Below are positions 7,829 to 11,995 of a stretch of DNA of 51,343 bases, piece by piece; the first letter of the stretch is position 1; every line of letters starts with the position of its first letter. The stretch lies in contig NZ_BONC01000058.1 in assembly GCF_016862515.1 (NCBI RefSeq), forward strand, positions 1 to 51,343. Reading direction: 5' to 3'. The notes under the pieces are model-generated. The model had not been told where the DNA came from, searched no databases, and was given only the letters and a program-made list of their open reading frames with translations. This DNA comes from Asanoa iriomotensis. Its GTDB lineage: Bacteria > Actinomycetota > Actinomycetes > Mycobacteriales > Micromonosporaceae. The position numbers were made by a program, and so were the translations under genes.

Positions 7829-8020
7829 CGCGAACGCCGCAGCCGACACCCGCCGCCCAACCGACCCCGCGCGATGGTGCGGTTGGCCTGAGCCCCTCGA
7901 GCCCGCCGCGAACGCCGCAGCCGAGACTCGCCGCTCAACCGACCGCGCGCGATGGTGCGGTTGGCCTGAGCCGCCTCGCGCCCGCCGCCCAACCGACCGC
8001 CCGCCATGCCGCGGTCAGTC
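7829..8020. repeat. 78-bp direct repeat, two copies plus partial copies
   Basis: Copy A (7829-7906) and copy B (7907-7984) both start with CGCGAACGCCGCAGCCGA and share GATGGTGCGGTTGGCCTGAG. A shortened third copy starts at 7985 with GCCCAACCGACC. A more decayed copy lies at about 7763-7828. The unit length is a multiple of three, but no gene is supported here. Confidence 0.8.
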
Positions 8021-8076: not shown

Positions 8077-8955
8077 TCAGCCGACCGGCAGCGGTGTCGC
8101 GGAGCGCATCAATGCGACATAGCCCTCCTCCAGCGACGGGCTGACCGGTATGGCGTCGGGCGACGGTGGGCGGGGGCTGACAACCCGGTAGTGGGTGCCG
8201 TCCGTGCGGGCGATCGCCGACACCACGACGCCGTCCGTGGGAGGTGAGCCGGCGGTGACGATCTCCCAGGTGACGCCTTCGGCGCGGGCGGTCAGGTCGG
8301 TGACCTGGCCCGTGAAGAGGACGCGACCGGCGGCGAGGACCGCGGTCTGGCGGCACGTCTGTGCCACGTCTTCGACGATGTGGGTGCTGAGCAGGACCGT
8401 GCGGGCGCCGGCCAGGCTGGACAGGAGCGTGCGGAAGCGGATGCGTTCCTCCGGGTCGAGGCCGACCGTGGGCTCGTCGACGATCAGCAGCGTCGGGTCG
8501 CCGAGGAGCGCCTGTGCGATGCCGACCCGGCGGCGCATGCCGCCGGAGAAGCCTTTGAGCTTGCGGCCCGCGACGTCGGACAGGCCGACCAGGTCGAGCA
8601 GGTCGCCGACCTGGCCGCGGCGGGCGGCCCGGTCGTCGAGGCCCTTGAGCAGGCCCACGTAGTCGAGGAACTCCGTCGGCGTCAGGTCGGGATAGAGGCC
8701 CAGCTCCTGTGGCAGGTAGCCGAGGCGCCGCTGCACCGCGACCCGGCCCCCGCGGGTCGACAGGTCGTTGCCCCCCACGACGACCCGGCCCGACGTGGCA
8801 GGCAGGACGCCGGCGAGGATCCGCATCAGGGTCGTCTTGCCGGCTCCGTTGGTGCCGAGCAGACCGAACATCCCACCCGACACCGTCAGGTCGACCCCGT
8901 CGAGGGCGGTCACCCGGCCGAAGCGGCGCCGCAGGTCTGCGATTTCGATGTGCAC
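8077..8955 (-). CDS. ABC transporter ATP-binding protein (module 2)
   Basis: A 292-residue export-type ATPase. Motifs: Walker A GTNGAGKT (34-41), Q-loop in YLPQELGLYP, signature FSGGMRRR, Walker B LLIVDEP, switch His in LSTHIVED. It is the third gene of a minus-strand operon after two membrane subunits (12 bp after the second). It is clearly related to the module 1 ATPase (334-1212), including the YLPQ and EPTVGLDPE segments. Its C-terminal 90 residues are a variable domain with no recognised motif. Expression is probably driven by the ECF-type promoter at 10466-10494. Confidence 0.93.
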   Translation of the reverse strand: MHIEIADLRRRFGRVTALDGVDLTVSGGMFGLLGTNGAGKTTLMRILAGVLPATSGRVVVGGNDLSTRGGRVAVQRRLGYLPQELGLYPDLTPTEFLDYVGLLKGLDDRAARRGQVGDLLDLVGLSDVAGRKLKGFSGGMRRRVGIAQALLGDPTLLIVDEPTVGLDPEERIRFRTLLSSLAGARTVLLSTHIVEDVAQTCRQTAVLAAGRVLFTGQVTDLTARAEGVTWEIVTAGSPPTDGVVVSAIARTDGTHYRVVSPRPPSPDAIPVSPSLEEGYVALMRSATPLPVG

Positions 8956-8967
8956 GATGTGGTCCTC

Positions 8968-9780
8968 TCAGGCCTTGGCGGGCCAGGTCTGGCGGGTGGC
9001 GCGGTGTGCCGCGAGGGCGGCGGCGGTCATCGGGATCAGGCCACATAGGACGATCACGGCGACGCTGAGCGCCGCCGAGGCACCGCTCGGGTCGGGGCGC
9101 AGGAACGGCAGGAGGCCCGGTGTGCCGGCGAACAAGGCTGTCTGGCCGCTGCCGAGCAGCCACGTCGCGGCGTAGTCGCCGATCGGGGTGAGGACCGTGC
9201 CGGTCAGCGAGGGCAGGAACGCGGGGGCGAGCATGTTGCCCCAGAACCAGTAGCCGACGAACAGCACTCGGAACAGCGGCACCGACAGGAACGTCGGGCA
9301 GACCAGCGCGAAGCCGGCCACCATCGCGATCCCAGGCAGGGTGACCACCGCGAACGCGACCAGGGCCCAGCCGAGCAGCGCCGGGTCGTGCCGCTTCGGT
9401 AGCTCGGTGACGGCGGCGACCAGCAGGGCCGCCAGGCCGGGCAGGCCGCACGCGGCGACGCCCCCCAGGTATTTCCCGCCCAGCCGGGCGACCGGCCCAA
9501 CGGGCAGGCTTTCCAGGAGCGGCTCGACCCGCAGCCGCCGGTCGCGGACCAGCCGATCGGCCAGGAGCATGCCGTAGGCGAGCGGCATCAGGATGGAGAA
9601 GAGCAGCGCCCAGGTGGCCATCACCTCGCGGGCCGGGGTGCCCACCGGCAGGCTGCGTGGGCCGCGGTCGCCCTGCAGGACGACCAAGGTGCCGCCGAGC
9701 AGCACCGCGGCGATCCACAGCGATCGTTTGCGGGCCTGCATCCGGAACTCGTAGCGGGCCACGGCGAGCAGCGCGGTCAC
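8968..9780 (-). CDS. ABC-2 type exporter permease subunit
   Basis: 270 residues with about six hydrophobic segments. The N-terminus ARYEFRMQARKRSLWI is the amphipathic elbow helix typical of ABC-2 permeases. The ATG at 9780 overlaps the TGA of the upstream membrane gene (9777-9780), and the ATPase follows 12 bp downstream, so it is the second subunit of the module 2 exporter. Substrate unknown. Confidence 0.85.
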   Translation of the reverse strand: MTALLAVARYEFRMQARKRSLWIAAVLLGGTLVVLQGDRGPRSLPVGTPAREVMATWALLFSILMPLAYGMLLADRLVRDRRLRVEPLLESLPVGPVARLGGKYLGGVAACGLPGLAALLVAAVTELPKRHDPALLGWALVAFAVVTLPGIAMVAGFALVCPTFLSVPLFRVLFVGYWFWGNMLAPAFLPSLTGTVLTPIGDYAATWLLGSGQTALFAGTPGLLPFLRPDPSGASAALSVAVIVLCGLIPMTAAALAAHRATRQTWPAKA

Positions 9781-10460
9781 GCGTCCTCCTCGGTCAGCAG
9801 GCGCTCGGGCCTGTGCAGAACGGCGGCGGTGGCAGCCAGGAGAACCAAGCCGCCGGCGAGCAGCCCGATCCGGTTGGCGGCCCAGCCCGGACCGTCGCCG
9901 ACCCGGCTGGTGAAGAACAGGAACAGCGGCCGCAGCGCCGGGGTGACGAACACCGTGGCCCAGATCTGCTCGGCCAGCCAGATCAGGGCGACCAGGCTGC
10001 TGGTCAGCACGGCGCTGCGCGTGACCGCCGCGACCAGTGCCGCGAAGGCGGCCAGCCAGAGTGCCGGCGCGGCCCAGACCAGCAGCGTGGCGGCCCCGCC
10101 GGGACCGAGCCGGTAGCCCGCCAGCCAGGCGCCCGCGGCGTAGATCAGGCAGCAGGCGGCGGTGCTCGCGCCCAGGACGCCGAGCCGCCGCCCGATGGTG
10201 GCCAGATGGAGGGTGGGCAAGGACAGGTGCAGCTCGCGGCAGGTCTCGCGGACGACGATCGTCAGCGCCACCATCGCGACCGACAGCGGGGCGACCGCCT
10301 CGAGCCCGGCGAGCAGGAGGCGCTCGGCCCGCTCGTGCCCGGCTCCGGAGAGCTGGATGAACATGGCGATCGCGGCGGTCAAGAGCAACGCGGCCGGTGG
10401 GGCGAGCAGCGCCGCGGGCCCCGCCCGCCGCGCCTCGTGGAGCCAGATGGTCAGTCTCAC
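9777..10460 (-). CDS. Membrane subunit of module 2 ABC exporter
   Basis: A 227-residue hydrophobic protein with about six membrane segments; the N-terminus RLTIWLHEARRAGPAALLAPP again looks like an ABC-2 permease elbow. The start is the GTG at 10460. No Shine-Dalgarno sequence is visible. Instead, a -10-like GGTACCCA ends 5 nt before the GTG, so the mRNA is probably leaderless. It is the first gene of the exporter operon, located 55 bp downstream of the anti-sigma gene. The family is not recognised beyond the ABC-2 resemblance. Confidence 0.78.
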   Translation of the reverse strand: MRLTIWLHEARRAGPAALLAPPAALLLTAAIAMFIQLSGAGHERAERLLLAGLEAVAPLSVAMVALTIVVRETCRELHLSLPTLHLATIGRRLGVLGASTAACCLIYAAGAWLAGYRLGPGGAATLLVWAAPALWLAAFAALVAAVTRSAVLTSSLVALIWLAEQIWATVFVTPALRPLFLFFTSRVGDGPGWAANRIGLLAGGLVLLAATAAVLHRPERLLTEEDA

Positions 10461-10465
10461 GGTGA

Positions 10466-10494
10466 TGGGTACCGCGCGGGCGGGCGAAGGTTCA
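10466..10494 (-). promoter_or_regulatory. ECF-type promoter of the module 2 exporter operon
   Basis: Read on the minus strand: TGAACCTTC, 12 bp, GGTACCCA, then 5 bp to the GTG start. Both boxes and the spacing are identical to the element in front of the sigma factor gene (11967-11995). The match is seen directly; that this sigma factor reads both sites is inferred. Confidence 0.75.
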
Positions 10495-10515
10495 GGACAA
10501 AGTTGAAAACCCGGC

Positions 10516-11403
10516 TCACGACGACGCCACCCGGACAGGGCGACGACCCGCCAGCGGCGCCAGCACGACCGCCGCGAACGTCACGGCCACCGCACCCAGC
10601 AGCAGCGCCGGGCCCGGCCGCCACAGGGCGTCGAGGACCGGTGCGAGGCCGCGGTCGAGGAGCGCCGTCGGCGCCAGCAGGCGCAGCATCCAGCAGACCA
10701 GGACGGTGGCGGCGCCGATCTCCGGGCGCCAGAGCACGGCCAGCGCGAAACTCAGGGCCGACAGCGGCACGAGCGGGCCGAACCAGGTCACGAACAGCTC
10801 CGCGAGCGCCAGGTCACCCCGCGGCCACGCCATCGCCGCCGAGGCCAGGGTGCCGACGCCGACGGTCACCGCCAACACCAAGGTGAGGCGGGCCAGGACC
10901 AGCACCCGGGTCGAGGTCGGAGTGGCCCGCACGAGCTCGGCCGCCTCCCCGTCGGCACCGCAAGCGGCGGCGACGGCGAGGGCCGCCACCAACGGCACCA
11001 CCAGGGACAGCAGGTCTCCGGCGCGGTTGGCGGGCGCCGACGCGGCATATCCGGCTCCCGCGGCGATCACCACGACGGCGACCGCCCAGACCCGCCAGCC
11101 GACCAGCCGGAGCTGCCGGGTCAGCAGCCCCCAGGCGATCCGCGCTGCACCGAACGGGCGACCGGCCGGCACGTAACGCGGCGGCACATGGGTCAGCCGG
11201 GCACGCACGACCGCGAACGGCGGCGGGTCCTGCGGGGTTGCGGCCAGGGTGGCCGTGCGTACACCCGAAGCCAACGTGGACCACGACGCGGCGTCCGCGC
11301 GGCACGGCGCGCAACCTTGCAGGTGGCCGGCGATCTCCGCCGCCGCGGGCGGCGGCAACGTGCCAGCCGCGTACGCCGGGAGCGCATCGGTCGGATGGGT
11401 CAT
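10516..11403 (-). CDS. Anti-sigma factor-like membrane protein with zf-HC2 motif (module 2)
   Basis: 295 residues. HxxxCxxC zinc motif (His27, Cys31, Cys34) in GHLQGCAPC, then a cytosolic stretch to about residue 85. Roughly six membrane segments follow, including VWAVAVVVIAAGAGYA and LLLGAVAVTFAAVVLAPLAG. The ATG at 11403 overlaps the stop of the ECF sigma gene (ATGA, 11400-11403). The role inferred is to bind and restrain that sigma factor at the membrane. Same architecture as 1787-2581. Confidence 0.83.
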   Translation of the reverse strand: MTHPTDALPAYAAGTLPPPAAAEIAGHLQGCAPCRADAASWSTLASGVRTATLAATPQDPPPFAVVRARLTHVPPRYVPAGRPFGAARIAWGLLTRQLRLVGWRVWAVAVVVIAAGAGYAASAPANRAGDLLSLVVPLVAALAVAAACGADGEAAELVRATPTSTRVLVLARLTLVLAVTVGVGTLASAAMAWPRGDLALAELFVTWFGPLVPLSALSFALAVLWRPEIGAATVLVCWMLRLLAPTALLDRGLAPVLDALWRPGPALLLGAVAVTFAAVVLAPLAGRRPVRVASS

Positions 11404-11960
11404 CGGCCGGCCTCCTTCGCGGTGAGTTGGGGTAGGGCCCGGGCCAGGGCGGCGCGGGCGTTGAACAGGCGGCTCTTCACGGTGCCGAGCGGGATGTCGA
11501 GCACGGTGGCGATCTCGGCCAGGGGCAGCTCGGCCGCGAACACCAGGTGCAGCACCTCGCGGTGGCCCGCCGGCAGCCGGGCCATGGCGGCGCCGACAGC
11601 GGTGACGTCGGCGCGCGCCAGGGCGACCTCGTCCGGCGTGGCAAGGGCGCTCGGCACGGAGGCCGCCGCGTCGAGCGGCAGGGCGGGCGGCGGTGACGAA
11701 CGAATCCGCTTCGCGGCCTGACGGCGGCAGATGCCGAACAGCCACGTGCGGACGGTCGACCCGCCGGCGAACCGGGCCGCCGCGCCCTGCCAGACGGCGA
11801 CGAACGTGTCCTGAAGCGCCTCCTCCGCCAGCCCGCGGTCACGGGTCAGTTGCACCGCGTAGCGCAGCAGCACCGCCGCGTGGCGGGCGTAGAGCAGCTC
11901 CAGAGCCTGCTCGTCACCGCCCACCACGCGGCGCAACAACGCCTCGTCGGACTCGTCCAT
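11400..11960 (-). CDS. ECF RNA polymerase sigma factor (module 2)
   Basis: A 186-residue ECF sigma factor. Region 2 includes ALELLYARHAAVLLRYA and EEALQDTFVAVWQG; region 4 includes LPLAEIATVLDIPLGTVKSR. I choose the ATG at 11960 (MDESDEALLRRVVGGD). It matches the family N-terminus and lies 6 nt after a conserved GGTACCCA box, consistent with a leaderless transcript. The frame is open back to 11996, but that would include the promoter itself. The same promoter motif in front of this gene and of the exporter operon suggests autoregulation plus one adjacent target. Confidence 0.92.
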   Translation of the reverse strand: MDESDEALLRRVVGGDEQALELLYARHAAVLLRYAVQLTRDRGLAEEALQDTFVAVWQGAAARFAGGSTVRTWLFGICRRQAAKRIRSSPPPALPLDAAASVPSALATPDEVALARADVTAVGAAMARLPAGHREVLHLVFAAELPLAEIATVLDIPLGTVKSRLFNARAALARALPQLTAKEAGR

Positions 11961-11966
11961 CGCTTG

Positions 11967-11995
11967 TGGGTACCACCCGGAGGCGAGAAGGTTCA
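11967..11995 (-). promoter_or_regulatory. Autoregulatory ECF-type promoter of the module 2 sigma gene
   Basis: On the minus strand: TGAACCTTC, 12 bp, GGTACCCA, then 6 bp to the ATG. Identical in both boxes and spacing to 10466-10494, while the spacer bases differ. This argues for selected function rather than simple duplication. Confidence 0.75.

Follow-up and report, generated by a model that had tools for sequence, protein, structure and literature searches.

Does the extracytoplasmic function (ECF) sigma factor encoded on a contig of Asanoa iriomotensis control the ATP-binding cassette (ABC) exporter encoded next to it, and if so through which sequence? The stretch analyzed (contig NZ_BONC01000058.1 of assembly GCF_016862515.1; hereafter the window, meaning all of its 51,343 nucleotides) carries on its minus strand a sigma gene, an anti-sigma gene and a permease-permease-ATPase operon. 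We observed that the motif TGAACCTTC-N12-GGTACCCA occurs as exact 29-nt copies on the minus strand in front of the sigma gene (11967-11995) and in front of the exporter operon (10466-10494). The first copy, the candidate promoter of the sigma/anti-sigma operon, comprises the -35 box TGAACC (11990-11995) and the -10-like box GGTACC (11969-11974). The second copy lies between the anti-sigma gene and the first permease gene, in the 55 nt that separate them, which suggests a separate, internal promoter for the exporter. As a sequence-only reading of this locus had proposed, both boxes and the 12-bp spacing are identical at the two sites, whereas the spacers differ. The flanking sequences differ as well. 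These observations, with those presented below, suggest that the locus is very probably an autoregulated ECF module, in which the sigma factor's own promoter would drive the sigma and anti-sigma genes as well as an ABC-2-type exporter.

The motif is rare in this genome. With up to three mismatches allowed, the window holds only the two matches, and 100 shuffled sequences yielded 0.03 matches on average, none of them reaching two. Across the 8.57-Mb assembly, the pair in the window represents the sole exact copies, and we found one further site with one mismatch and four with three mismatches. Reading the assembly backwards gave four matches at the same three-mismatch tolerance, so only the sites with zero or one mismatch stand out. 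The shuffles and the scans of the assembly and of multiple genomes, each compared with its control, rule out chance or random scatter as the origin of the motif.

We further analyzed the motif at orthologous loci. It was found before both genes in all five other genomes of the genus, with at most two mismatches. The changes are common to both sites of the same genome in G002 (TGAACCTCC) and G005 (GGTACTCA), and they are mixed between the two sites in G003 and in the -10 box of G004. A sigma model built from 11 orthologs was then run over 250 genomes of the family (Micromonosporaceae) and returned 38 matches in 36 genomes at an E-value of 4.5e-54 or better; paralogs appeared only at 2e-37 or worse. 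These 38 matches, two loci of G048 (a genome of another family of the same order) and six of the 80 from another scan compose a set of 46 loci, from which repeat copies had been removed. A relaxed form of the motif precedes the sigma gene in 38 of the 45 loci with upstream sequence (all except L056, L058, L183, L186, L187, L189 and L190); among the 40 loci in which permease 1 was found, 25 show the relaxed form before this gene (all except L046, L057, L060, L063, L162-L164, L169, L174, L175, L177, L179, L181, L183 and L189). The latter misses include all six loci of genus g32 with permease 1 found, and in L060 and L063 the order of the permeases differs. The relaxed pattern was present in 426 of 18,400 random windows of the examined loci, true sites counted in. 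Between TGAACC and TAC, the distance is 17 or 18 in most cases, and the two promoters of a locus share the same value in 22 of the 24 loci with two sites; as these loci are related, they do not count as 22 independent cases. Random scatter of the motif, or its absence from orthologous loci, had been named beforehand as the outcome that would speak against a shared promoter; the related genomes presented neither.

The two sites might be alike merely through recent copying of one from the other, with no regulator in common. Copies of the promoter do arise in this genus, as illustrated by the site of G003 described below. However, the boxes and their spacing have been kept while spacers and flanks differ, and both sites persist across several genera and in the other family (G048), which makes this explanation extremely unlikely.

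The geometry of the two sites is also informative. Neither box had been thought to resemble the ECF consensus: this holds for the -10 box, which reads GGTACC and not CGTC, but not for the -35 box, since TGAACC shares GAAC with the consensus. The target list of Streptomyces coelicolor SigE includes CTGAACC and GTGAACC (PMC6767563). For Mycobacterium tuberculosis SigH, the -35 box is placed at -34 to -29 and the -10 element starts with a G at -11 (PMC6411747). When this register is applied with the G of GTAC at -11, the predicted +1 falls near 11962 and 10461, which precedes the start codon by 2 nt for the sigma gene and by 1 nt for permease 1. The -10-like box itself ends 6 nt before the ATG of the sigma gene (11960); for the GTG of permease 1 (10460) the distance is 5 nt, in agreement with the 5-6 nt initially reported. 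Each of the 25 exporter sites has an ATG or GTG 5 or 6 nt past the box. Before the sigma gene, an ATG or GTG lies 6 or 7 nt past the box in 26 of the 38 sites. It is absent at that place in the 12 others, several of which (e.g., L165, L167, L168, L170, L173 and L176) present a leader roughly 20 nt long that includes a Shine-Dalgarno-like stretch. Judged from this spacing, it is strongly suggested that the exporter is leaderless and that the sigma gene is likewise leaderless in the source genus, where both transcripts would begin at the start codon or 1-2 nt earlier.

The presence of the motif across genomes follows that of the sigma gene. The pattern TGAACC-N15/16-GSTACYCA was found in 26 of 31 genomes outside the genus that possess a sigma ortholog (30 from the family, plus G048), with 29 of its 41 sites at the cassette. 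By comparison, it was found in 3 of 31 ortholog-free genomes, chosen from the 214 such genomes of the family, with three sites in total; the backwards-read controls of the two scans gave three and two matches, respectively. We considered whether the repeated boxes could instead be an operator for another DNA-binding regulator, in view of the palindromic nature of GGTACC and the exact identity of the boxes at the two sites. This appears very unlikely given that the motif follows the sigma ortholog (26/31 vs. 3/31 genomes), that the box-to-start-codon spacing is fixed at every exporter site, and that TGAACC and its spacing fit the ECF register. With the promoter reading, the sigma factor would recognize TGAACC-N16-GTAC in the source genus and a version with one extra base in several related clades; the first site would drive the sigma and anti-sigma genes and the internal copy would drive the permease-permease-ATPase operon. 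A wider regulon outside the genus was not retained, the signal being weak: 12 off-cassette sites in the 31 genomes with the ortholog against three sites in the 31 without.

The sigma gene (11400..11960, minus strand) starts with an ATG and encodes 186 amino acids. The list of open reading frames (ORFs) had placed its start at GTG 11996, upstream of the motif. This start was rejected: conservation begins at ATG 11960, which is thus the likely start, and the frame upstream varies among relatives. The Sigma70_r2, Sigma70_r4 and sigma70-ECF superfamily models all scored above their cut-offs on this protein, and M. tuberculosis SigL is the nearest solved sequence (E-value 8e-19). A short protein with regions 2 and 4, it is an ECF (group 4) sigma factor by sequence criteria, and the conserved TGAACC site at fixed spacing is the putative autoregulated promoter characteristic of this class. 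We considered the label ECF39 and dropped it, since S. coelicolor SigE and SigQ are given for ECF39 (PMC8999054).

The end of the sigma gene overlaps by 4 nt with the anti-sigma gene (10516..11403, minus strand; 295 amino acids). Its product had been described simply as a membrane anti-sigma factor; our analysis resolved it into a zinc-finger domain (residues ~1-60) fused to a membrane domain resembling ABC-2-type permeases (residues ~82-290). The zf-HC2 model scored above its cut-off, with matches to RslA and ChrR, and H-x3-C-x2-C was found in 40 of 44 ORFs of anti-sigma orthologs. With this N-terminal domain encoded beside a sigma gene, the protein is, by its sequence, a predicted ZAS (class I) anti-sigma factor. 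The membrane domain aligned with permease 1 in hhalign (P = 2.1e-8; 22% identity over 122 columns), and a hidden Markov model (HMM) of this domain matched 18 distinct permease-1 ORFs in related genera, with E-values down to 8e-14. The same HMM had no match on permease 2 or on reversed ORFs, and the window's own permease 1 was not among its direct matches. The predicted folds of the membrane domain and of permease 1 both appear ABC-2-like. By sequence, this membrane domain is related to ABC-2-type permeases.

The coupling helix is the segment of ABC-2 permeases that touches the ATPase. We detected a coupling-helix-like motif in nine of the 44 anti-sigma orthologs with a strict pattern, and in 35 of the 44 with a looser pattern, written after seeing the misses, which matched 108 of 2,500 shuffled ORFs. 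It is conceivable that the anti-sigma factor senses the state of the exporter, which would make the exporter its receptor, and we put this forward tentatively as falling short of probable. The anti-sigma factor would hold the sigma factor, its permease-like domain may dock on, or compete for, the ATPase or the partner permease of the exporter, and substrate load or a shortage of exporter would free the sigma factor and lead to more exporter. Alternatively, the promoter reading is right but the permease-like domain may be a duplicated permease that now acts as an independent membrane receptor, for the compound or for a membrane disturbance, with no contact with the exporter. Membrane anti-sigma factors commonly sense alone, and the membrane domain has diverged far from permease 1, as indicated by the identity given above. 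However, the coupling-helix-like segment retained by most orthologs would be needless without ATPase contact. We estimate that the chances of an independent receptor are close to even, if slightly below.

The exporter operon comprises three genes on the minus strand. Permease 1 (9777..10460; 227 amino acids) has a GTG start and is predicted to be leaderless, and its gene overlaps by 4 nt with that of the presumed permease 2 (8968..9780; 270 amino acids), which was assigned by position and synteny only. The ATPase (8077..8955; 292 amino acids) matches ABC_tran (E-value 1e-29); GldA and DrrA are its nearest NCBIfam models, both below cut-off. The Pfam scan found no family match for permease 1 or permease 2, and permease 2 also had no NCBIfam match.

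The module is not self-contained, as it had been described, because the genus presents additional scattered sites, one of them preceding a gene for an efflux pump of the major facilitator superfamily (MFS) in five of six genomes. The pattern TGAACCT-N14-GGTACYCA was found at 23 places in the six genomes of the genus; 12 of them belong to the cassette and 11 lie elsewhere, and the control gave zero matches. All 11 places outside the cassette present an ATG or GTG exactly 5 nt past the box, although the pattern does not demand it. When the start codon was required and up to two mismatches were allowed, we obtained 34 places (12 at the cassette, 5 at the MFS gene and 17 others) and two control matches; the start-codon pattern gave no place in 12 genomes of the family without the sigma gene. 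The MFS gene is DHA2-like (L158:4652-6173; G000 C17) and possesses the motif with a predicted leaderless start in those five genomes; its ortholog in G002 is without the motif. QepA, LfrA and SmvA are its nearest NCBIfam models, all below cut-off. These results suggest that the regulon of the source genus would also take in this efflux gene.

Other copies with an ATG or GTG 5 nt downstream are scattered (L008:3934-3962 in G000:C10, L150-L153, L155-L157 and L259-L263). Several of these sites precede short ORFs or face the 3' end of a neighboring gene; the neighbors faced, read by eye, are selD (G001, G003 and G004) and efeB (G004). G001 contains a tandem pair of such sites 147 bp apart, and the site at G002 C1:322438 (L260:4201-5075) lies between MFS-like and methyltransferase-like ORFs, also read by eye. 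At L259:5040 (G003 C18:417439), we observed a near-copy of the exporter promoter of G003 together with its first codons and no exporter gene behind it, which by its sequence is a short promoter duplication. A short intergenic repeat lies beside the C10 site (L008:4025-4085), with at least dozens of matches per genome in the six genomes of the genus.

Two origins of the additional sites were rejected. The first was a longer mobile repeat: among the matches listed for a query of 206 bp surrounding the C10 site, the promoter part was found at four places in other genomes, and most of these matches correspond to the unrelated short intergenic repeat alongside, such that a longer element was not found. 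The second was that the sites are remnants of whole-exporter duplicates: a tblastn search of the five window proteins against 18 loci gave weak matches (best E-value 0.39). A more speculative scenario, which we regard as possible, if somewhat doubtful, is that the anti-sigma factor acts as a permease subunit dead for transport, assembled with the ATPase and/or permease of the exporter, such that exporter occupancy directly gates the sigma factor. In the source genus, the promoter and start codon would also have been copied as a unit to new places, which would have brought in a second efflux pump and perhaps small transcripts, leaderless or antisense.

An ECF sigma factor, a zinc-finger anti-sigma factor and a neighboring ABC exporter are each of an already known kind. 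In the sigY-yxlCDEFG operon of Bacillus subtilis, an ECF sigma gene, anti-sigma genes and an ABC transporter are found together. The present module resembles that operon in its combination of ECF sigma factor, anti-sigma factor and ABC transporter, but its anti-sigma factor is a zinc-finger/permease fusion, unlike those of SigY, which are small proteins. The SigY regulon includes sigY itself (PMC3498285). Compared with SigL/RslA of M. tuberculosis, the membrane part is here permease-like and the regulated operon encodes an ABC exporter, the comparison leaving aside the membrane part of RslA. The exporter is similar to ABC-2-type exporters (DrrAB-, NosFY- and ABCG-like) in that its ATPase is near the GldA and DrrA models and the predicted folds of permease 1 and of the anti-sigma membrane domain appear ABC-2-like; it differs in that both permeases fall outside Pfam families and that the role of anti-sigma factor would fall to a relative of the permease. 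In the BceAB transporter and its BceRS two-component system, the transporter acts as the sensor. The coupling proposed here would similarly let the state of the exporter set its own expression, but the output would pass via an anti-sigma factor to an ECF sigma factor and not via a histidine kinase. A literature search aimed at permease-like anti-sigma factors found none in the sources within its scope, which left out most subscription papers, and other searches returned no closer system in the portions of the literature accessible.

To our knowledge, few membrane anti-sigma factors have a known signal. When such a factor derives from a relative of the permease of the exporter that it targets, this directly suggests what is sensed and how, and, if this is true, the transporter itself would be the receptor, in a testable design. 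The module is easily followed thanks to a short promoter, which is tied to genomes with the sigma gene and is predicted to start transcription on the start codon. Related cassettes with sigma, anti-sigma, two permeases and ATPase were identified in contigs of Chloroflexota (Longilinea, L060; UBA2395, L063), with TGAACCTT...GGTACA before the sigma gene. These cassettes belong to another phylum, which suggests either an old arrangement or one that has been transferred widely. Finally, P0002 had no match in the plasmid collection, and a GC-rich stretch of the window downstream of the ATPase gene (7860-7965) contains the segment CGCGATGGTGCGGTTGGCCTGAGCC twice.
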